Positions 17,160 through 29,038 of a stretch of 32,903 nt of DNA are shown one piece after another (position 1 is the stretch's first letter; each line of letters begins with the position of its first letter). This stretch comes from Beijerinckiaceae bacterium (lineage in GTDB: Bacteria; Pseudomonadota; Alphaproteobacteria; Rhizobiales; Beijerinckiaceae), in assembly GCA_009773635.1 (NCBI GenBank), contig WSYC01000012.1:178030-210932 (forward strand). Reading direction: 5' to 3'. Below the pieces are notes generated by a model. The model was not told the DNA's origin. It searched no databases and saw only the letters and a program-made list of their open reading frames with translations. The position numbers and the translations under genes are program-made.

Positions 17160-19298
17160 TCAGATCGATCCCACCGTCCTGAGCCGGGCGGAGGGATGGA
17201 TCTCGCCTTGCGCGATGACCGCCGTCTGCGGCCGGAAGCGTTCGACGATCATCCTGACATAGGGCCGGATGGCGTTCGAGGTCACGAGCGTCGGCAACTC
17301 GCCGAGCCGGGCTGCCTCCTCGAAGCGATCGCGCAGCGCGATGACAAAATCATGCAGGCGCGAGGGCTGCATCGCGAGATGCTTCACCTCGCCATCGCCA
17401 ATCAGCGAGGAGGAGAAGGCGTCTTCCCACGCCGGCGTCAGCGTGATGAGCGCGAGCTGCCCGGTCGGCCCGGTGTGCTGGGCACAGATCTGCCGGCCGA
17501 GGCGCGAACGGATATGCTCAACGATCATTCTGGGATCGCGCAGCGCGCCGGCGACTTCCGCGATGGCTTCGAGGATGGTGCCGAGATCGCGGATCGAGAC
17601 GCGTTCGGCGAGCAGCAGCTGAAGGATGCGCTGGATGCCGGTGGTGGCGATCTGGGCCGGCACGATCTCTTTCAGCAGGTCCTGATGCGCCTTGGGGAGA
17701 TCCTTCAGGAGCTTCTGCACCTCGACGAAGGAGAGCAGCTCGGACATGTTGTTCTTGATGATCTCGGTGAGGTGCGTCGCGATAACGGTCGCAGGGTCGA
17801 CAACGGTGTAGCCCCGCAGCTGCGCCTCATCACGCAAGGCCTCGTCGATCCAGGTCGCCGGCAGGCCGAAGGTCGGCTCCAGAAGATGCGCGCCGGGAAG
17901 CTGCACCTGCCCGCCGGCCGGGTCCATCGCCATGTACTGGTTCGGGAAGACGATGCCGTTGCCGGCGTCGATTTCCTTCATCTTGATGACGTAGTGGTTC
18001 GATTCGAGCTGGACATTGTCCACCAGCCGGACCGAGGGCAGGATGAAGCCCATTTCGCTCGCCAGCGTGCGCCGGAGCGCCTTGATCTGGTCGGTGATCT
18101 TGTCCTCACCGTTCTGCCCCTGCACCAGCGGGAGGAGAGCGTAACCGATCTCGATGCGGAGTTCGTCGAGACGCAGGGCTTCCTGCACCGGAGCATCCTC
18201 CGGCTTGGCTTCCGCTGCAGCCATGTCCATCATGGTCTGGGCGGCGTTCTCGATATCCGTCTGCTTCTGGCGACGGTCGAGCTGCATCGCGAGATAGCCG
18301 GCGACGCCCGCGAGCCCGAGGAACGGAATGGCCGGCATGCCCGGCAGAAGTGCAATGACGGCCATGACGAAGGACGACATGCCAAGCGCCTTCGAGGAAC
18401 CAATGAGCTGCTTCGCCAGCGCCTTGTCCGCCGCGCCGGTAACGCCGGCCTTGGAGACGAGCAGGCCCGCTGCGGTGGAGACGATCAGCGCCGGGATCTG
18501 GGTGACGAGGCCGTCACCCACGGTCAGCAGCGTGTAGGCGCGCGCCGCATCGCCGAAACTCATCGAATTCTGCGCAACACCGATGATGATGCCGCCGACG
18601 ATGTTGATGAAGGTGATGAGAATGCCGGCGATCGCATCGCCGCGCACGAACTTCGAGGCGCCGTCCATGGCGCCGAAGAAGGCGCTTTCGTCTTCCAGCG
18701 CCTTGCGGCGACCTTTTGCCTCGTCCTGATCGATAAGGCCGGCGGAGAGATCGGCGTCGATCGCCATCTGCTTGCCGGGCATGGCATCGAGGCTGAAGCG
18801 CGCCGCGACTTCCGCGATGCGGCTTGAGCCCTTGGTGATGACGACGAAGTTCACGATCACCAGGATGATGAAGACAATCAGGCCGATGACGAAATTGCCG
18901 GCCATCACGAAGTTGCCGAAGGCCTCGATCACCTGCCCCGCCGCCCCATGGCCCGTGTGCCCGTTCGACAGGATGAGGCGTGTGGATGCGAGGTTGAGCG
19001 ACAATCGCAGCATTGTCGCGATCAGCAGCACGGTCGGGAAGGATGAGAATTCCAGCGGCGCGCCGATGAACAGCGCGGTCATCAGGATCAGCACCGAAAT
19101 GATGATCGAAAACGCCAGCAGGAGGTCGAGCACCATCGGCGGCAACGGCACGATGAGCACGACGAGAATGGTCAGGATGCCCATGGCCAGCGCGATATCG
19201 CCGCGCTTGAGGAAGGCCCCCAGTTCCTTGGCCGTCATATAGCCGCCGGGCTGCAGTTTCAGACCGCCGCCACTGCCGCCAACGCTTGCGTCGCTCAT
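17160..19298 (-). CDS. flhA: Flagellar export gate protein FlhA
   Basis: A 712-residue inner-membrane component of the flagellar type III export gate. The N-terminal half (about 28-340) has eight hydrophobic helices. The FHIPEP-family signature RIAEVAARFSLDAMPGKQ is near residue 160. The cytosolic half (about 370-712) binds export chaperones and substrates. ATG 19298 is preceded by GGGCGAG. It follows flbD after 234 bp, a gap containing its own promoter block (19414-19455), so it is likely transcribed separately from the fliF run. The length is normal and nothing is missing. Confidence 0.97.
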   Translation of the reverse strand: MSDASVGGSGGGLKLQPGGYMTAKELGAFLKRGDIALAMGILTILVVLIVPLPPMVLDLLLAFSIIISVLILMTALFIGAPLEFSSFPTVLLIATMLRLSLNLASTRLILSNGHTGHGAAGQVIEAFGNFVMAGNFVIGLIVFIILVIVNFVVITKGSSRIAEVAARFSLDAMPGKQMAIDADLSAGLIDQDEAKGRRKALEDESAFFGAMDGASKFVRGDAIAGILITFINIVGGIIIGVAQNSMSFGDAARAYTLLTVGDGLVTQIPALIVSTAAGLLVSKAGVTGAADKALAKQLIGSSKALGMSSFVMAVIALLPGMPAIPFLGLAGVAGYLAMQLDRRQKQTDIENAAQTMMDMAAAEAKPEDAPVQEALRLDELRIEIGYALLPLVQGQNGEDKITDQIKALRRTLASEMGFILPSVRLVDNVQLESNHYVIKMKEIDAGNGIVFPNQYMAMDPAGGQVQLPGAHLLEPTFGLPATWIDEALRDEAQLRGYTVVDPATVIATHLTEIIKNNMSELLSFVEVQKLLKDLPKAHQDLLKEIVPAQIATTGIQRILQLLLAERVSIRDLGTILEAIAEVAGALRDPRMIVEHIRSRLGRQICAQHTGPTGQLALITLTPAWEDAFSSSLIGDGEVKHLAMQPSRLHDFVIALRDRFEEAARLGELPTLVTSNAIRPYVRMIVERFRPQTAVIAQGEIHPSARLRTVGSI

Positions 19299-19413: not shown

Positions 19414-19455
19414 CTAGGCAATTTTTGCCGGGTTTGTGGTTAACGTCCGGTTACC
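19414..19455 (-). promoter_or_regulatory. flhA promoter block: CtrA box plus GGCAA-N3-TTGCC dyad
   Basis: TTAA-N7-TTAC (19440-19454) matches the CtrA consensus TTAA-N7-TTAA with one mismatch. The dyad GGCAA-N3-TTGCC (19417-19429) lies 10 bp away on the flhA side. The fliF promoter has the same two elements at the same spacing (24954-24995). Confidence 0.65.
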
Positions 19456-19532: not shown

Positions 19533-20900
19533 TCAGGCCATCGCAACGCGCGATGCGCCGGGCTCGGCGACATCGATGCCAACCGCAACATATTCATTGA
19601 GCTTGTTGCGCAGCGTGCGGATCGAAATCCCGAGGATTTTCGCCGCATGCGTGCGGTTGCCGAGGCAATGATCGAGCGTATCAAGAATAAGCTCGCGCTC
19701 GACGTCGGCGACGGTGCGGCCCACCAGCGCGCGGGTCGCGGCCTCCGCTGCTTCGGCGGCACGACGCGCGGTCGCGTCAGAGGCGGTCCGACTGATCGAA
19801 TCACCATCCGGCGTCAGGATCGCATCCGGTGTGATTTCGAGCCCCTGCGCCAGGAGGACGGCGCGGTGGAGGGTGTTTTCAAGCTCGCGCACGTTGCCGC
19901 GCCACGGGTTCGCCAGCAGCACGCGCTTGGCGTCATGGCTGATCACGCGCGCAGGCAACCCGTTGAGCTGGGCGTAGCGCTTGGCGAAGTGGTTCGCGAG
20001 TTCGATGATGTCGTTCGGTCGCTCGCGCAGTGCCGGGATTTTCAGGTTCACGACGTTGAGGCGGTAGAGCAGGTCCTCGCGGAAAGAGCCTTCCTTCACG
20101 CTCTCGGCGAGATTGCGGTTCGAGGTCGCGATGATCCGGATATCCACCGGCACCGGACGTGTCCCGCCAACGCGGTCGATGACCCGCTCCTGGATCGCGC
20201 GCAGCAGCTTGGCCTGAAGGCGCACATCCATTTCCGAGATTTCGTCGAGCAGCAAGGTGCCACCGTCGGCCTCCTCGAACTTGCCAACGCGCCGGGCGAT
20301 GGCGCCCGTGAAGGCGCCCTTCTCATGGCCAAAAAGCTCGCTCTCGAGCAGATTATCCGGGATCGCCGCGCAGTTGACCGAGACGAAAGGCTTCGCCGCG
20401 CGCTTCGATTTCTCGTGGAGAAACCGCGCCATGACTTCCTTGCCGACGCCGCTTTCGCCGGTGATCAGCACGGAGGCATCGGAGCCGGCAACCTGCTGCG
20501 CGAGCTTGATGACGCGCATCATCGATTCATCGCGGTAGATGATCGAGGTTTCCGTACGGCTGACCGCTTCGAGAATCGCCGCGATCAACTCGGGATCGGG
20601 CGGCAGCGGCACGTATTCCTTCGCGCCGGCCTCGATCGCGGCCACAGCGGCGCGCTTGTCGTTGGCGACACCGCAGGCCACGATGGGCAGCGTGATGTGC
20701 TCAGCCTTTAGGCCGTTGTAGAGGGCTGCGATGTCGAGATTGGCATCGACCATCGCGAGATCAGCGCCCTTGCCCTGCCGCAGATGCGACAGCGCCGCCT
20801 CGACCCCATCGACCTGCGCGACGGAAGCGCCCCGCTCCCGCGCGATTTTCGCCGCGGTGATCAGTTCACCGCGCAAGGTTCCGACAATGAGAAGCCGCAT
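19533..20900 (-). CDS. flbD: Sigma-54-dependent flagellar transcription regulator FlbD
   Basis: A 455-residue NtrC-type activator for late flagellar genes. The N-terminal receiver-like domain (1-115) is degenerate: the acidic pair is replaced (LLIVGTLRG) and the conserved Lys is absent (GAKEYVPLPPDPE), although D52 remains. The AAA+ domain has Walker A GESGVGKE (148-155), the sigma-54 contact loop GAFTGA (195-200) and Walker B GGTLLLDE (213-220). A Fis-type helix-turn-helix (NRTHAAKILGISIRTLRNKL) lies near the C-terminus. Caulobacter FlbD also lacks a working receiver and is controlled by FliX; no fliX is visible here. It follows fliN, with a repeat element in the gap. Confidence 0.93.
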   Translation of the reverse strand: MRLLIVGTLRGELITAAKIARERGASVAQVDGVEAALSHLRQGKGADLAMVDANLDIAALYNGLKAEHITLPIVACGVANDKRAAVAAIEAGAKEYVPLPPDPELIAAILEAVSRTETSIIYRDESMMRVIKLAQQVAGSDASVLITGESGVGKEVMARFLHEKSKRAAKPFVSVNCAAIPDNLLESELFGHEKGAFTGAIARRVGKFEEADGGTLLLDEISEMDVRLQAKLLRAIQERVIDRVGGTRPVPVDIRIIATSNRNLAESVKEGSFREDLLYRLNVVNLKIPALRERPNDIIELANHFAKRYAQLNGLPARVISHDAKRVLLANPWRGNVRELENTLHRAVLLAQGLEITPDAILTPDGDSISRTASDATARRAAEAAEAATRALVGRTVADVERELILDTLDHCLGNRTHAAKILGISIRTLRNKLNEYVAVGIDVAEPGASRVAMA

Positions 20901-21063: not shown

Positions 21064-21411
21064 TCAGCGGTCAGACTTGATGATTTCCGTCATGGTCACG
21101 CCAAGCTTGTCATCGACGAGCACGACTTCGCCGCGCGCGACCAGCCGGTCGTTCACGAAGATGTCGATCGCCTCACCGACCCGGCGGTCGAGTTCGAGAA
21201 TATGCCCCGGGCTCATCCTGAGGAGTTCGCCGACGCCCATCTTCGAGCGCCCGAGCACGGCAGACACCTGCACGGGCACATCGAAAACGTGTTCGAGGTC
21301 GGCCGCGCTTTTGGCGGAAGGCGAGCCTTCAACGTCATTGCCATAGGCGGCGGCCACGAGATCAGCCGTGGATTCGAGATCCTGGAGCTGGAAATTGCCT
21401 TCGGTCGACAT
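21064..21411 (-). CDS. fliN: Flagellar motor switch protein FliN
   Basis: A 115-residue C-ring protein with a SpoA-type domain in its second half: VPVQVSAVLGRSKMGVGELL, then LELDRRVGEAIDIFVNDRLVARGEVVLVDDKLGVTMTEI. The short variable N-terminus is acidic. FliN forms the base of the C ring and helps bind FliH at the export gate. It starts 34 bp after fliH in the fliF run. Confidence 0.95.
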   Translation of the reverse strand: MSTEGNFQLQDLESTADLVAAAYGNDVEGSPSAKSAADLEHVFDVPVQVSAVLGRSKMGVGELLRMSPGHILELDRRVGEAIDIFVNDRLVARGEVVLVDDKLGVTMTEIIKSDR

Positions 21412-21445: not shown

Positions 21446-22090
21446 TTATTCACGATCCGGGAACAGAAGGGTCACGGAGCGGTCAATCAGAGCTTCAAGT
21501 TTGGCCTGTTCGCGGACAACGCCGCCATCGGCCCATTCGATCCGGCAATCGCCGGTAGCGATATCCGGGTCGGGAAAGACGAAAAGCTTCGCCTCGATCC
21601 CGTTCTCGCGCATCAGCAGGCTGATCCGGGTCTTGCAGCTGTCAACCAGCGACGGCGCTACGCGCACCGCGACATGAGGCGTTCCGCGCAAATCCGTGAA
21701 GATCGCGCGAGCTGTTGCCTCGATCGCCTGCAACGGCGCATTCTCGATCATGCGGCCGGCGATCTTGCGGGCAAAAATCTGCGCGAAGGCCAGCGCCTCC
21801 TTGCGGGCATTATCCTCAAGGCGCCGCATTTCGATCGTCGCGATCTCGAGCCGGGCCCCCAGCGCTTCAAGGCAGGCGGACAGGCGGATGGACTCGTCAT
21901 CCCGCTGAAGCCGACGGCCTTCCTCCACGCCGGCGTTGAAGGAATCGGCCTTCGCTTCGGCAAGAAGGCGGGCGTGCTCGACGAAGGGCACGGGAACCCG
22001 CGCGCCGGGCTCGATGAAGGGCGAGCTGTGGCCGGACTTGGTGAAGTCCCTGCCGAAATTGAATGCATTGCGTTCGCCTGCCATTGCCAT
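21446..22090 (-). CDS. fliH: Flagellar export regulator FliH (FlbE-like)
   Basis: The 214-residue product sits between fliG and fliN, the position of fliH (flbE in Caulobacter). The N-terminal part (residues about 1-50) is poorly structured. A helical region rich in Ala, Glu and Arg follows, then a C-terminal alpha/beta part ending GDCRIEWADGGVVREQAKLEALIDRSVTLLF, which matches the FliH/HrpE family end. FliH holds FliI as a dimer and docks it to FliN. The start at 22090 has AGGA close by; a second ATG at 22084 is possible. Confidence 0.85.
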   Translation of the reverse strand: MAMAGERNAFNFGRDFTKSGHSSPFIEPGARVPVPFVEHARLLAEAKADSFNAGVEEGRRLQRDDESIRLSACLEALGARLEIATIEMRRLEDNARKEALAFAQIFARKIAGRMIENAPLQAIEATARAIFTDLRGTPHVAVRVAPSLVDSCKTRISLLMRENGIEAKLFVFPDPDIATGDCRIEWADGGVVREQAKLEALIDRSVTLLFPDRE

Positions 22091-22109: not shown

Positions 22110-23171
22110 TCAGTAGATCAGTTCGTCTTCGGCGCGGTTCTTGCCGATGGTGATTTCGCCCTTGGCTGCCAGTTCCTTCGCCAGCAGCACGATCTTGGTC
22201 TGGGCCTCGTCGACCTCCTTGAGTCGCACGGGACCGCGCCCGGCCATCAGATCTTCCATGTTCTTCGAGGCGCGCGTTGACATCTGCGAGAGGAAGAACT
22301 TCTTCATCGAGGGCGCCGAACCCTTGAGTGCGATGGCGAGCTGGTCGCGATCCGAGAAGCGGATCAGCGTCTGGGTCGAGCCCGGATCGAGCTTGGCAAG
22401 ATCCTCGAAGGTGAACATCAGCGCGCGGATTTTCTGCGCGGAATCGCGGTTGCGCTCGTCGAGCGCCGACATGAACCAGCTCTCCGTCTGCCGGTCGAAG
22501 GAATTGAAGATTTCCGCGATCATCTCGTGGCTGTCGCGCCGCGAGGTCTGCGACAGGTTGGAGATGAATTCGGTGCGCAGCGTATCTTCGATGTGGTCGA
22601 GCACTTCCTTTTGCACCGGCTCCATGTGCAACATGCGGCTGACCACTTCGAGCGCGAATTCGTGCGGGAGCAGCGAGAGCACGCGTGCCGCGTTTTCGGA
22701 GTGGATCTTCGACAGGATCACGGCCACCGTCTGCGGGTATTCACCCTTGAGGTAGTTGGCGAGAACCTGATCCTGCACATTGCCGAGTTTTTGCCACATG
22801 TTACGGCCCGCAGGCCCCCGCAGCTCCTCCATGAGGGAGTAGACTTTTTCCTTCGGCAGGATCTTGTTGAGCAGGGCCTCGGTCCGGTCGAAGTCACCGG
22901 TCACAGCACCGCCGTGGGCCATCATCGAGAGGAACTCCGCGACCAGCGCCTCGACTGCCTCGGCCGTCACGGCACCCAGGCGTGCCATGGCGCGCGAGAC
23001 CGTGCGGATTTCATCCTCGTCAAGTTCCTTCCAGATTTCGGCGCCGTAGCGTTCGCCGAGCACGAGCAGGATGATCGCAGCCTTTTCCGGCCCCGAGAGA
23101 AAACGGGTCAACTCGCGGTTCGGCCCGGTTGCTTCCGGAGCCTTTTCGACCGCTGTTCCTGCCTTGGCCAT
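22110..23171 (-). CDS. fliG: Flagellar motor switch protein FliG
   Basis: A 353-residue rotor protein joining the FliF ring to the C ring and interacting with the stator. The N-terminal domain includes [26 protein letters not shown]. The middle domain has the EHPQ-type motif as [13 protein letters not shown]. The C-terminal domain (about 240-345) holds [20 protein letters not shown] with the charged residues that contact the stator. It follows fliF after 55 bp and precedes fliH by 19 bp. AGAGGG lies before ATG 23171. Confidence 0.97.
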
Positions 23172-23226: not shown

Positions 23227-24915
23227 TCAGCGCGTTTGCGCAACCCACTGCCGGACGATGGCAACGGATTCGCTCGGATTGTCCTGCACGATCTTGCCGA
23301 GGTGATCGATGGCACCCTGCTGCAAGGCGCTCTGGATCGCGTTGGCACTACCCTGCTGATTGGAGTTGGCGGGAACCATCGCACCATCCGGGGCCGGCAG
23401 CGCGAGCGGCTGGCCCGGGGCATTGCCCCCCGCCATGCCGGAAGCCGCGATCACGCCCTGAAGGCCGGTCAGCGGCGGCGGAGCCGCAGGATCACCCTTC
23501 TTGTCCTTGCCGCCGATGCCCATCTGACGCAGCAGCGGCCGGACGATCAGCAACATGACCAGCAGCGTGAGGATGCCGAATACCGCCAGCTCGATCAGCC
23601 GCAACGCATCTTCCTTGGTCAGCGCCAGCATCTGCTCGATGAAGGTCGGCGTCTTGCCCTCGACCGGGGTTACGCCCTCGGCGAAGCGCAGGTTGATGAC
23701 CTCGACCTGATCGCCGCGGTTCCGATCAAACCCGATCGAGGAGCGCACCAGCGTGGCAATCCGCTCCAGCTCCTCGGCAGTGCGGGGCTGGTAGGCCATC
23801 TGACCATTGGCGCCAGCGGCATAGATGCCATCCACAAGCACCGCGACAGACAGGCGCTTGATGCGGCCAGCTTCGATGATCTCGGTGCGCGTGGTCTTGG
23901 AAATCTCGTAGTTGACGATTTCCTCGTTGCGCTGCGTGGCATCCTTCTGCTGCGCGTTCTGCTGGTTCTGGTTCTGCTGCGGCAGCTCGCTGGCGACGGA
24001 AACCTGATTGTCCTTGGCTTCCTGGCTCTGCTGGTTCTCCGTCCGGGTCTGCGTGGAGCGGACCACGCGGCTCTCCGGGTCAAAATTGTCCGTCACCTGC
24101 TGGACGCGGTTGAAATCGATGTCGGCGGAAACCTGCACACGCGCCCGACCTCGACCGACGACGCTGGCGACGATATCCTCGACCTGACCACGCAGGCGGC
24201 GCTCATGGCCCGATTGCTTGTCCTGCGCCAGGGCTGCGGCATCGGTTTCATTGCCGGCACCATCGGCGAGAAGGCGACCGGTTTCATCGACAATCGAGAC
24301 GTGCTCGGGCTTCAGCCCCTGAACCGCCGTCGCAACGAGGTGGCGGATGGCACGGATCTGCCCCGCATCAAGCTCGCCGCGCACCTTCAGCACGATGGAG
24401 GCCCGCGGGTTCTGCTTTTCGCGGTCAAAGAGCTTCTTTTCGGGAATCGCGAGGTGAACGCGCGCCTGCTGGACGCGGTCGAGCCCCTTGATCGTGCGGG
24501 AGAGCTCACCCTCGAGCGCGCGAAGCTGGTTGACCCCCTGCACGAAGCTGGTGGCGGAGAAGGTGTCGCTCTTGTCGAAGATCTCGTAGCCGACATTGCC
24601 GCCGGCCGGCAGGCCCTTGCCCGCGAACTCCATCCTGAGCCGCGTCGACATGTCCCGCGGCACGAGGATCGTCGCGCCATCCTGCTTCAGTTCGTATTTC
24701 ACGCCGCGGCTGTCGAGATCGCGGATGATCGTGTTGGAATCCGCCATCGGCAGATCGGAGAAGAGAACCCCCATGCCCGGCGCGGACATCTTCGTCATGA
24801 CGAAGGCGAAGAAGCCGATGAGCGCGAGAGTCACCGCGCCCATGGCAACAAGGCGCTGCGGACCAAGCCTGTTCACGATTTCAAGGATGCCGTTCACTGC
24901 CCCACCATTCCACAT
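23227..24915 (-). CDS. fliF: Flagellar MS-ring protein FliF
   Basis: About 562 residues; it forms the MS ring in the inner membrane, the first flagellar structure built. Transmembrane helix 1 lies in LVAMGAVTLALIGFFAFVM near the start and helix 2 in FGILTLLVMLLIVRPLLRQM near the C-terminus. The periplasmic YscJ/FliF region includes FSDLPMADSNTIIRDLDSRGV and the ring-building segment. A Gln/Asn-rich stretch (QQNQNQQNAQQ) sits in the periplasmic part. The start is ambiguous: GTG 24927, ATG 24915 and GTG 24897 are in frame. GTG 24897 has a GGTGGGG upstream and gives the usual short N-terminus. It heads the fliF-fliG-fliH-fliN-flbD run. Confidence 0.95.
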   Translation of the reverse strand: MWNGGAVNGILEIVNRLGPQRLVAMGAVTLALIGFFAFVMTKMSAPGMGVLFSDLPMADSNTIIRDLDSRGVKYELKQDGATILVPRDMSTRLRMEFAGKGLPAGGNVGYEIFDKSDTFSATSFVQGVNQLRALEGELSRTIKGLDRVQQARVHLAIPEKKLFDREKQNPRASIVLKVRGELDAGQIRAIRHLVATAVQGLKPEHVSIVDETGRLLADGAGNETDAAALAQDKQSGHERRLRGQVEDIVASVVGRGRARVQVSADIDFNRVQQVTDNFDPESRVVRSTQTRTENQQSQEAKDNQVSVASELPQQNQNQQNAQQKDATQRNEEIVNYEISKTTRTEIIEAGRIKRLSVAVLVDGIYAAGANGQMAYQPRTAEELERIATLVRSSIGFDRNRGDQVEVINLRFAEGVTPVEGKTPTFIEQMLALTKEDALRLIELAVFGILTLLVMLLIVRPLLRQMGIGGKDKKGDPAAPPPLTGLQGVIAASGMAGGNAPGQPLALPAPDGAMVPANSNQQGSANAIQSALQQGAIDHLGKIVQDNPSESVAIVRQWVAQTR

Positions 24916-24953
24916 GTTGCGCGCCACGATTTGCGTGGCTTGCGATTTCTGCG

Positions 24954-24995
24954 CTAGGCAAGAATTGCCCGGTGGATGGTTACCGCGACGTTAAC
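24954..24995 (-). promoter_or_regulatory. fliF promoter block: CtrA box plus GGCAA-N3-TTGCC dyad
   Basis: TTAC-N7-TTAAC (24980-24995) is a one-mismatch CtrA box. The dyad GGCAA-N3-TTGCC (24957-24969) lies 10 bp towards fliF. The block is identical to the flhA block (19414-19455) at 29 of 42 positions. In Caulobacter fliF, CtrA activates and FlbD represses from an ftr site near the start of transcription; the dyad could be that operator. Confidence 0.65.
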
Positions 24996-25082: not shown

Positions 25083-26096
25083 ATGACCCTGCCAATCGCG
25101 ATCACGATGGGAGACGCCGCCGGAATTGGCCCTGAAATCATTGCCAAATACGTCGAGGCCGAAGGCTCATCCGGCCTGTTCGTCATCGGCGACCCCCGGG
25201 TGATGCAGCGTGCGCTTCTCGCGATCGGTTCCAGGCGAGGCATCGTGCCATGGAGGGGCGACGAAGCTCTGAAGCCGGGGGCTAAAATTCTACCCAATGC
25301 CCATTCTGATTCGAGCCTTGCGGTTCTCGATGTCGGCCCGCTCGCCGATGATGTCGCTCCGGGCCGCGTCGACGGTCGCGCCGGCAAGCTGGCGCATGCG
25401 GCGATCATCGGCGCCATCGATCTTGCCATGGCCGGCACAATCGCTGCGCTGGTGACCGCGCCGATCCACAAGGAGGCGCTCAAGGCCGCCGGCATTCCCT
25501 TTCCTGGCCATACCGAAATCCTCGCCGACCGGACCGGCACGCGCGATTTCGGGATGATGCTGATCGAAGGGCCGCTGCGTGTGATTCTCGTCTCGATCCA
25601 TGTCTCGCTGCGCGAGGCCCTCGACAAGGTGACTGCGGAGAGCCTTGCCCGCACGTTCAAGCTTGCCGAGGAAGGTTGCCGGGCGCTTGGCATCGCCAAC
25701 CCGCGCATTGCCGTCGCCGGCCTCAACCCCCACGCCGGGGAAGGCGGATTGTTCGGCCGGGAGGAGATCGAGATCATCGGCCCGGCCATCGCCCGCGCGC
25801 AGGCTCTCGGCATGGCGGTTTCAGGCCCCTACCCGCCCGATACGATCTTCATGCGCGCCCGCCGGGGCGAGTTCGACATCGTTGTCGCGCAATATCACGA
25901 TCAGGGGCTGATCCCGATCAAGCTCAATGGCATCGAGAAGGGCGTCAACATCACAGTGGGATTGCCGATCATCCGCACATCGGTCGACCACGGCACGGCT
26001 TTCGATATCGCCGGCAAGGGGATCGCCGATCCCTCAAGCCTCGCCGAGGCCGTGCTCGTGGCCCGCCAGATGGCGACGGCCCGAAAAGAGGGCTAA
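25083..26096 (+). CDS. PdxA-family dehydrogenase (PdxA2-like)
   Basis: A 337-residue NAD-dependent dehydrogenase of the PdxA family, which oxidises 4-phosphohydroxy-L-threonine in vitamin B6 synthesis. Family motifs are ITMGDAAGIGPEI, TAPIHKEALKAAGIPFPGHTE, AGLNPHAGEGG, YHDQGLIPIK and GLPIIRTSVDHGTAFDIAGKG. Segments such as MMLIEGPLRVILVSIHVSLREALD and SGPYPPDTIFMRARRGEFDIVVAQYHDQG resemble, from memory, the PdxA2 branch. That branch handles 4-phospho-D-threonate or -erythronate, so the substrate is open. GAGGAGG precedes ATG 25083. It is divergent from fliF and convergent with sciP. Confidence 0.85.
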   Translation: MTLPIAITMGDAAGIGPEIIAKYVEAEGSSGLFVIGDPRVMQRALLAIGSRRGIVPWRGDEALKPGAKILPNAHSDSSLAVLDVGPLADDVAPGRVDGRAGKLAHAAIIGAIDLAMAGTIAALVTAPIHKEALKAAGIPFPGHTEILADRTGTRDFGMMLIEGPLRVILVSIHVSLREALDKVTAESLARTFKLAEEGCRALGIANPRIAVAGLNPHAGEGGLFGREEIEIIGPAIARAQALGMAVSGPYPPDTIFMRARRGEFDIVVAQYHDQGLIPIKLNGIEKGVNITVGLPIIRTSVDHGTAFDIAGKGIADPSSLAEAVLVARQMATARKEG

Positions 26097-27238: not shown

Positions 27239-28792
27239 TCAGACCATGCGGTCGATGCTGGAATTGGGGATATGAACGCGGCGCATTACGGCGTCGCCGA
27301 TCTGGGCCTGAAGCGCGACCTCGTCGAGCGCATCCACGGCGGAACCGCCCTGCGCGCGCTGGTCCTGCTGCTGGCCCTCGCGGCCTTCGCCGCGCAGTGA
27401 GAAGGAAAGCCCGTCCGGCGATTGCTTCAATCCAGCCTGTTCAAAGGCATTCTGAAGCGTCGAGGCATCACGGCGGAGCATCTGCAAGGTTTCGACCCGG
27501 TCCACGACGAGGCTCGCATTGACCTCGCCGTTCTCACGGATCTGGAGCTTGACATCGACACGGCCCAGCTCGGCAGGGTCAAGGCGGATCTGGAAATTGG
27601 TCACACCGCGCACCGCCTGCATGCCGATCTCGATCGGGAGCATCTGGAGCGGGGTCGGGCGCAGGGTTTCCGGAGCACGATTGAGTGCGCTGGCCATCAC
27701 CGGGCGATCCAGCCCTGCAAGAATGTCCGCGGGGCGGTGAATGGCGTTCGAACCGCCGAACCCTTCGAGGAAATCGGCGAAGTGCGCGGCGCGGGTCGGG
27801 TGAAGGTTCGGCGCTGTGGTCTTGGCGGCGGAGCTTTCGACCGAAGTGCCCTTGCCGCTCTTCTGCGTCTCGCCCGAACCGGCTTCGCCCGCCGTTTTCC
27901 CGGCATTGGCTTCCATATTGGCGGCCGCTTTCGCATCCGGCTTGAGCAGCGCAGGATCGATGGGTTCGCTGGATGCCGTCTTTCCGGCTTCAGCAGCACC
28001 CTCGGCCGGATTGGTCAGGCCGGGGACGCTGACCGCTGGCCCGGACTTGTCTGTCGGCGTGGCTGAGAGCACGCCGGTGACACCGCCCACGGGGCCGGTG
28101 CCTTCAGGGGTCTCGCCAGTCGCCACCGTGTCGGGATCGGTCGTCACGACGCCCCCGACGAGTGCGGGGGTCGGCTGTGCGGCAACATTGGTCGCCTGCG
28201 CGGCATCAGCAGTTTGCGTTCCATCGGCGACACCGGGGTCAATCATGCGTTCGAGAAGGCTGATCATATCCGTGGCGGCATCGGTGGCCGCAGGGGTTGT
28301 ATCGGCAACCTGCTCGGCATTCGCGCCCTCCGGCGTGGCCTCGGCGGTCGTGGTGACCTCATCCTCGGCAACCGGCTTCATACCATTCTGCTCGTCGGTC
28401 CGCTCGGTCGCGCGGACCTCCTTCGCCTCTGGCCGCTCGGCCTCGTTGCGATCTTCGGCAGGGCGGGCGCGGCGTTCGGAAGCCTCACCCTTGTCGTCAG
28501 CAGCACGACGATCGTGCTCTGCCGCGTCCGGGCCCTCGCGGCGACCCGTCTTATTGAGCGGGTCACGGCTCGGCCGATCAGGGCGGGGATCAACCGAACG
28601 CGAGCGCGCCTCGGCGGCAGGGCGAGGCTTTGCCTGATCTTCGCGCATCAGATGGCCAAAGCTGGCTTTCTGGACCTGATGATCTTCTCCGGTCGGCTTT
28701 ACCCCTCCCTCGACACCCTTCGCATCCACGCGGCGCGCGGCGGCGAAATCGGAGAGGGCATTGGCGAGGGAGAAGGTCACGTCGCTTGGCAT
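27239..28792 (-). CDS. fliK: Flagellar hook-length control protein FliK
   Basis: About 517 residues. The N-terminal two-thirds are low-complexity, rich in Ala, Glu, Thr, Pro and charged repeats (for example DRNEAERPEAKEVRATERTD). The C-terminal domain (about 400-500) carries the FliK signature FQIRLDPAELGRVDVKLQIRENGEVNASLVVDR with LRRDASTLQNAFEQAGL. FliK is exported as a molecular ruler and switches export specificity through FlhB. The frame opens to 28945, but the first part is AT-rich promoter. ATG 28822 lies upstream of the start of transcription expected from the sigma-54-like element, so ATG 28792 (MPSDVTFSLANAL) is preferred. Confidence 0.9.
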   Translation of the reverse strand: MPSDVTFSLANALSDFAAARRVDAKGVEGGVKPTGEDHQVQKASFGHLMREDQAKPRPAAEARSRSVDPRPDRPSRDPLNKTGRREGPDAAEHDRRAADDKGEASERRARPAEDRNEAERPEAKEVRATERTDEQNGMKPVAEDEVTTTAEATPEGANAEQVADTTPAATDAATDMISLLERMIDPGVADGTQTADAAQATNVAAQPTPALVGGVVTTDPDTVATGETPEGTGPVGGVTGVLSATPTDKSGPAVSVPGLTNPAEGAAEAGKTASSEPIDPALLKPDAKAAANMEANAGKTAGEAGSGETQKSGKGTSVESSAAKTTAPNLHPTRAAHFADFLEGFGGSNAIHRPADILAGLDRPVMASALNRAPETLRPTPLQMLPIEIGMQAVRGVTNFQIRLDPAELGRVDVKLQIRENGEVNASLVVDRVETLQMLRRDASTLQNAFEQAGLKQSPDGLSFSLRGEGREGQQQDQRAQGGSAVDALDEVALQAQIGDAVMRRVHIPNSSIDRMV

Positions 28793-28827
28793 TGGCACTG
28801 ATCCAGGTTGCGGGTTGAGCATGACCA

Positions 28828-28843
28828 AGCAAGCCGGAGGCCA
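28828..28843 (-). promoter_or_regulatory. Sigma-54-like -24/-12 promoter for fliK-flgD
   Basis: On the minus strand TGGCCTCCGGCTTGCT fits the sigma-54 pattern TGGC-N7-TTGCT, with the GG and GC pairs at the required spacing. Transcription would begin near 28817, between the two candidate fliK start codons. FlbD (19533-20900) is the expected activator. Confidence 0.5.
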
Positions 28844-28857
28844 GTTTTGAAAATCAT

Positions 28858-28872
28858 TTAACCAATTGTTTT
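28858..28872. promoter_or_regulatory. Weak CtrA-like box between fliK and mnmA
   Basis: TTAACCAATTG followed by TTTT resembles TTAA-N7-TTAA with two mismatches, in an AT-rich divergent spacer (28793-29038). It is kept as a low-confidence candidate because the local AT content makes chance matches likely. Confidence 0.25.
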
Positions 28873-29038
28873 TTATCAATTTTTCAATATTTCTTCCGTC
28901 CGGTTCAAGGCAGAAAAAACCGCTTCTCCCGCCGCTGCCCGGCAAAAACTGCCGCCCTTCCGGCCAGAGACTGGAAAGCCGGTGGAAGAAGCGCTAAGGA
29001 TGGGGCCGAAGGCGCAGAGGGTGCGCCGGTTGGATGTC

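Follow-up and report, generated by a model that had tools for sequence, protein, structure and literature searches.

The fliF and flhA genes of the window are each preceded by a short block that we predict from sequence to be a composite promoter, activated by CtrA and repressed by FlbD, with the same FlbD operator serving to activate genes that have sigma-54 promoters; we put the probability of this reading at roughly 0.8. The window is the whole stretch of 32,903 nucleotides that was analysed (G000:C21:178030-210932), and its host genome comprises 3.24 Mb in 35 contigs. An early flagellar module switched on by CtrA and off by FlbD had been proposed in the initial annotation of this DNA, and the proposal gains support from the conservation of the putative operator, from the way it tracks FlbD, and from its apparent enhancer placement at sigma-54 promoters.

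Gene layout and composite blocks

In the order of transcription along the minus strand, the window encodes fliK, fliF, fliG, a fliH-like gene, fliN, flbD, and flhA (Table 1). As had been claimed, FlbD is encoded in the same cluster as the blocks: flbD lies downstream of fliF within one gene run, between fliF and flhA. The gene order around fliF and flbD is the same in Caulobacter. The pdxA gene diverges from fliF, and the intergenic region containing the fliF block is common to both. The listed start codon of fliK (TTG at 28945) falls within a dyad and is probably not where translation begins; in-frame ATG codons occur at 28822 and 28792. The genome also encodes FliX (PF10768 above cut-off, C19:56994-57398) and RpoN (TIGR02395 above cut-off, C2:78235-79716), and a ctrA gene is expected in Hyphomicrobiales.

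Table 1. Genes and predicted regulatory features of the window, in window positions.
Feature	Position	Strand	Basis
fliK, open frame	27239..28945	-	PF02120 Flg_hook
pdxA	25083..26096	+	TIGR00557; start codon is a choice made in the analysis
fliF	23227..24927	-	TIGR00206 above cut-off (NCBIfam equivalog)
fliG	22110..23171	-	TIGR00207 above cut-off
fliH-like	21446..22090	-	Top NCBIfam match, below cut-off (137 of 179 bits)
fliN	21064..21411	-	TIGR02480 above cut-off
flbD, sigma-54-type activator, GAFTGA loop intact	19533..20900	-	NF050807 above cut-off
flhA	17160..19298	-	TIGR01398 above cut-off
fliF composite promoter block (predicted)	24954..24995	-	Dyad 24957-24969 and CtrA-type box 24980-24994; conserved in relatives
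flhA composite promoter block (predicted), in the flbD-flhA gap	19414..19455	-	Dyad 19417-19429 and CtrA-type box 19440-19454
One-mismatch dyad GGCAGTTTTTGCC upstream of fliK, enhancer position	28941..28953	-	Weight-matrix match, 18.1 bits
Sigma-54-like promoter TGGCCTCCGGCTTGCT of fliK	28828..28843	-	9/12 consensus positions; 97 bp downstream of the dyad

Each block consists of a perfect FlbD-type dyad, GGCAA-N3-TTGCC, and a CtrA-type box, which is made up of two TTAA-like half-sites 7 bp apart. The fixed spacing reported initially was confirmed, with exactly 10 bp between dyad and box in both blocks, and a recount of the two 42-bp blocks returned the reported identity of 29/42. The fliF dyad ends 29 bp ahead of the fliF start at 24927. 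The motif had been given on the plus strand; since fliF and flhA both lie on the minus strand, the CtrA box precedes the dyad in the direction of the genes (CtrA box, 10 bp, dyad). A third exact composite is located outside the window at flgB (C19:46488-46525), which is followed on contig C19 by flgC- and fliE-like frames, and the predicted module, with flgB included, is broader than first annotated. The box matches TTAA-N7-TTAA exactly at flgB and has a single half-site substitution at fliF and at flhA, the altered half-site at flhA being GTAA.

The description of the blocks as duplicated did not hold up. Had one promoter block been duplicated recently, the 29/42 identity inside one gene cluster would be explained, but we find this origin scarcely credible: likeness ends at the block edges, with neighboring 10-bp windows matching at only 1–5 of 10 positions, and relatives keep each block at its own gene. 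In two close relatives (L005 and L007) the blocks are kept while the flanks have diverged. Over the stretch running from TTAAC to GCAG, the fliF block is identical to their fliF blocks at 44 of 46 positions. The flhA block resembles their flhA blocks, and other members of the order also have composites at fliF, flhA, and flgB.

The genome-wide motif search that the initial annotation had recommended returned three exact copies of the composite (GGCAA-N3-TTGCC, 10 bp, CtrA box), all at flagellar genes, namely fliF, flhA, and flgB. The expectation from base composition over both strands is 7e-5 copies per genome, and a chance origin of the composite was rejected on this basis. Allowing up to 3 mismatches added one further copy, as compared with 5 in the reversed control. 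The dyad alone is weak evidence. It occurs exactly at 6 places in the genome, where 3.7 would be expected and the reversed control has 2, and with one mismatch at 182 places as against 100 in the control, which is too common for use as a genome-wide marker.

Conservation in relatives

We examined the blocks in a set of relatives consisting of the best 80 of 582 loci of FlbD relatives. The region upstream of fliF was readable in 74 of the 80, three of the others having no FliF match and three no usable fliF upstream region. Conservation in orthologous fliF promoters, a check that had been called for at the outset, was evident, in that 70 of these 74 loci from the best 80 of 582 had the dyad with no more than one mismatch (49 exact, 21 with one mismatch; the remaining 4 had two). 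Among those 70 promoters (best 80 of 582), the best CtrA box lay 10 bp from the dyad in 62 (60 uniquely, 2 as ties); five had it at 9 bp and three at other distances. Taken as a 17-letter composite, the element had at most 3 mismatches in 65, 4 in 6, and 5 in 3 of the 74 fliF loci of the best 80 of 582.

Conservation at flhA was more varied. The upstream region was readable in 34 of 36 flhA loci, with 2 set aside, and in these relatives (best 80 of 582) the dyad was exact in 12, had one mismatch in 5, two in 3, and at least three in 14. Roseibium, Stappia, and Devosia, in which flbD closely precedes flhA, are among those with three or more mismatches.

Specificity for flagellar genes across Hyphomicrobiales

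A looser pattern, HACC-N8-dyad, in which the first CtrA half-site is not required, was run over 150 Hyphomicrobiales genomes. It matched in 81 of the 150, and matches to the reversed-pattern control totaled 19. Fetching 138 regions provided 143 distinct sites (144 records, from which the duplicate S2 was dropped), a set that contains the flgB site of the host genome and leaves out its fliF and flhA sites. Flagellar status was assigned to a site when tblastn matched a flagellar reference protein no more than 420 bp downstream of it, with filtering by strand; three sites ahead of a GGDEF-like protein were scored as non-flagellar. The labels fliO-like and GGDEF-like rest on residues and position, and the fliO-like protein of the host genome has no Pfam match.

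Because the search pattern omitted the first CtrA half-site, this half-site constitutes an independent test. Sites with a full TTAA were flagellar in 57 of 59 cases (fliF 24, flhA 18, flgB 13, and fliO-like 2), those with three of the four letters in 12 of 15, and those with fewer letters in 6 of 69 (p = 1e-26 by Fisher's test for 57/59 vs 6/69, relatedness being ignored). The two non-flagellar sites with a full TTAA are located ahead of a LysE-type gene beside flbD and ahead of a PAS-domain protein. An exact-pattern search across the class matched in 5 of 289 genomes, three in the window's own family and two in one further family; this figure understates the reach of the element, since the host's own flhA site, with its GTAA half-site, escapes the pattern.

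Several sites lie ahead of genes outside the flagellar set. In genome G054, flbD and flhA are separated by two genes, one for a LysE-type translocator and a small one with no Pfam match (L160:147-1545). One composite lies ahead of the LysE gene and another ahead of flhA, which looks like the outcome of copying the promoter upon insertion of the cassette. In G164 (L158, minus strand, 924), a composite occurs ahead of a similar LysE-like frame beside a partial flbD. G135 (L263:1538), a genome with no FlbD above cut-off, has a CtrA box and exact dyad ahead of a PAS-domain protein that may be a cell-cycle kinase; this site is perhaps due to chance.

Co-occurrence with FlbD

A strict composite at a flagellar gene was found in 46 of the 79 genomes that have FlbD above its curated cut-off, as compared with 1 of the 64 that do not; seven genomes with partial or sub-cut-off FlbD were set apart and contained it in 2 cases. 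The sole composite-bearing genome among the 64 (G150) is 56% complete, and its congener G079 has both the composite and FlbD. By the exact pattern, a strict composite is lacking from the flagellar genes in 33 of the 79 FlbD-bearing genomes. Inspection of 13 fliF promoters missed by this pattern (11 from genomes above the FlbD cut-off, and those of G067 and G107, just below it) showed a composite with 2–4 mismatches out of 17 in 11 of them (at most 3 in 8) and with 6–7 in the other 2.

Conversely, 23 genomes have FliF above cut-off and FlbD neither above nor near cut-off. Upstream of fliF in 22 of these 23, there is no composite with up to 4 mismatches out of 17 (the best has 5) and no dyad with up to one mismatch. 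The composite is also absent from the second fliF in all four dual-flagellum genomes that have FlbD. The one exception among the 23 (G155) has a fliF composite with 2 mismatches out of 17. Its FlbD is likely to reside on a missing contig, since the assembly is 88% complete, its FliF score of 291 bits is similar to those of FlbD-bearing genomes, and its congeners G038, G086, and G123 have FlbD above cut-off.

Lineage confounds the loss of the dyad, because the FlbD-less genomes have a different FliF lineage and also have no CtrA box at fliF. FliF scores range from 183 to 234 bits in 22 FlbD-less Hyphomicrobiales (including G028, G049, and G050) and from 264 to 326 bits in FlbD-bearing ones, and the second fliF genes of dual-flagellum genomes likewise score lower, which suggests that low-scoring FliF marks a separate flagellar lineage. 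Mismatch counts overlap as well, with 9 of the 74 fliF loci (best 80 of 582) at 4–5 and the best FlbD-less region at 5.

Proteins related to FlbD are plentiful, with matches at E<=0.001 in 150 of 150 genomes and six in the host genome. With several relatives per genome, the dyad could in principle be bound by another regulator of similar fold, such as a second enhancer-binding protein. We regard this as very improbable, because the composite follows FlbD above its cut-off (46/79 vs 1/64), whereas the relatives occur in every genome. Furthermore, in Caulobacter both fliF and fliK have been established as targets of FlbD (PMC3096577).

The dyad upstream of sigma-54 promoters

The strongest sequence evidence for FlbD as the predicted ligand of the dyad comes from a second context in which the dyad occurs. 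Sigma-54 promoters were scored by 12 consensus positions and called at 10/12 or above. Away from fliF and flhA, the best 80 of 582 loci contain 28 exact dyads, and 25 of these 28 have a sigma-54 promoter on the same strand 87–111 bp downstream, measured start to start. In controls, an equal-score site was present within 200 bp for 3 of 62 fliF/flhA dyads and for 17 of 400 random places. Many of the 28 come from close Bradyrhizobium relatives, with Roseibium, Stappia, Afipia, and Pseudolabrys also represented; in the one case in which the downstream gene was checked (L019, Bradyrhizobium), it was fliK, followed by flgD. Such an enhancer position at sigma-54 promoters would tie the dyad to a sigma-54 activator.

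This second context also bears on whether the dyad might be a core promoter element, an extended −10 or a spacer, of CtrA-dependent flagellar promoters to which no regulator binds. Such an element would fit the conserved place of the dyad, on the side of the CtrA box where the −10 region is expected. However, the same palindrome some 100 bp upstream of sigma-54 promoters (25/28, best 80 of 582) is no core element there, by reason of its position; the dyad is moreover an inverted repeat, the form used by dimeric binders, and it is missing at fliF in 22 of 23 flagellates without detected FlbD. We accordingly give a core element very little credence and retain the dyad as a putative FlbD operator. 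The dyad was also considered as a sigma-54 promoter in its own right and was rejected because of its spacing, GG-N8-GC where GG-N10-GC is required.

The host genome has similar arrangements. An AT-rich stretch separates the fliK dyad from its sigma-54-like site (Table 1). At flgF, there is a 99-bp gap between an exact dyad and a sigma-54-like site (11/12), and at flgI a 95-bp gap between a two-mismatch dyad and such a site (11/12). As a class, sigma-54-like sites show little if any enrichment in contig C19, where they numbered 10 at 10/12, as compared with 5.8 in shuffles, and 1 at 11/12, as compared with 1.0. A strict sigma-54 pattern gave 6 matches in the host genome and 14 in the control, with none in C19 or C21. 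A search anchored on the dyad brought out sigma-54-like sites at later flagellar genes that strict scans had passed over, and these sites are imperfect (TTGT, TCGC).

The flgI region (L298:4840-4900, C19 about 56850) has in addition a CtrA-like box, which lies at about the composite spacing from the imperfect dyad. The sigma-54-like promoter follows after about another 95 bp, in the gap that separates flgI from the divergent fliX.

Proposed switch

The predicted circuit begins with CtrA, which, bound to the TTAA-N7-TTAA-type box across the −35 region, would recruit RNA polymerase early in the cell cycle. A box near −35 is described for CtrA-activated promoters (PMC6180460). With the second half-site overlapping −35, the dyad would span roughly −23 to −9, between the −35 region and the start site, so that FlbD bound to GGCAA-N3-TTGCC would be expected to block polymerase. 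In this way fliF (together with the downstream flbD), flhA, and flgB would be made early under CtrA and later shut by FlbD, which would keep polymerase out once the MS ring and export apparatus had assembled. At fliK, flgF, and flgI, where the same operator lies some 100 bp ahead of a putative sigma-54 promoter, FlbD would activate the genes that come next in the hierarchy. Such use of a single operator in two arrangements would suit the dual role of FlbD known from Caulobacter, namely to repress early genes driven by CtrA and to activate those with sigma-54 promoters. There FlbD activates middle genes besides repressing fliF (PMC3930126), and a fliX mutant has higher fliF-lacZ and lower fliK-lacZ activity (PMC3096577). 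Binding by FlbD and CtrA, the start sites, repression and its timing, and control by FliX are the parts of this circuit that we infer.

FlbD could instead bind the dyad and aid CtrA, as a co-activator or tuning factor. The sequence evidence for FlbD binding says nothing about the sign of its effect, and the mostly kept spacing (62/70, best 80 of 582) could mean that CtrA and FlbD are in contact. Opposed to this are the probable position of the dyad at the polymerase site and the behavior of Caulobacter, in which FlbD at ftr4 represses fliF (PMC3930126) and fliF-lacZ goes up when fliX is lost (PMC3096577). We judge an activating role at fliF to be quite unlikely, and repression by FlbD the better account.

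A broader conjecture, which we consider doubtful, is that the 10-bp register reflects contact between CtrA and FlbD. The joint operator might then be a single assembly checkpoint across FlbD-bearing Hyphomicrobiales, at which FlbD would act on the CtrA-polymerase complex instead of simply covering the start site. Such an operator could also capture cargo genes, as the LysE-type gene between flbD and flhA in G054 might suggest.

Comparison with known systems

The circuit itself is the known one of Caulobacter. What is added here is a predicted operator consensus and geometry for FlbD in Hyphomicrobiales, along with the set of operons under its putative control. The literature searched, which covered few subscription journals and some papers in part, contained no description of an FlbD operator in Hyphomicrobiales; FlbD binding sites are credited to Fumeaux et al. 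in PMC12421884. The proposed code is readable from sequence, in that a dyad in composite with a CtrA box would denote an early gene that is later shut off, and a dyad placed some 100 bp ahead of a sigma-54 promoter a gene turned on later.

The fliF promoter of the window resembles that of Caulobacter crescentus in having a CtrA-type box and a putative operator on the promoter side, with FlbD and FliX both present; the likeness to ftr4 is one of position and geometry. Of 25 genomes in the family of Asticcacaulis, which we take to be Caulobacteraceae, 24 have a FliF match; the same geometry occurs at 22 of the 24 fliF loci, the exceptions (L106 and L120) having their best dyad elsewhere. The fliF operator in this family (L104-L127) is less symmetric, commonly GG(T/A)AA-N3-CTGCC and mostly then TA(G/C), whereas that of Hyphomicrobiales is more often a perfect GGCAA-N3-TTGCC. 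As for the Caulobacter class III sigma-54 promoters, exemplified by fliK, the sequences at fliK of L019 and of the window likewise show a dyad some 100 bp ahead of a sigma-54-type promoter; unlike the Caulobacter case, the sigma-54 site of the window's fliK is imperfect (9/12).

A further parallel comes from the methanotroph Methylosinus sporium 5, for which PMC12403871 describes an unassigned Motif 3 at most 40 nt upstream of the mapped starts of flgB, motA, flgF, fliF, and flgE. Two of these genes, fliF and flgB, have composite sites here. It is a guess that Motif 3 is the dyad, and the dyad offers a testable identity for this motif.
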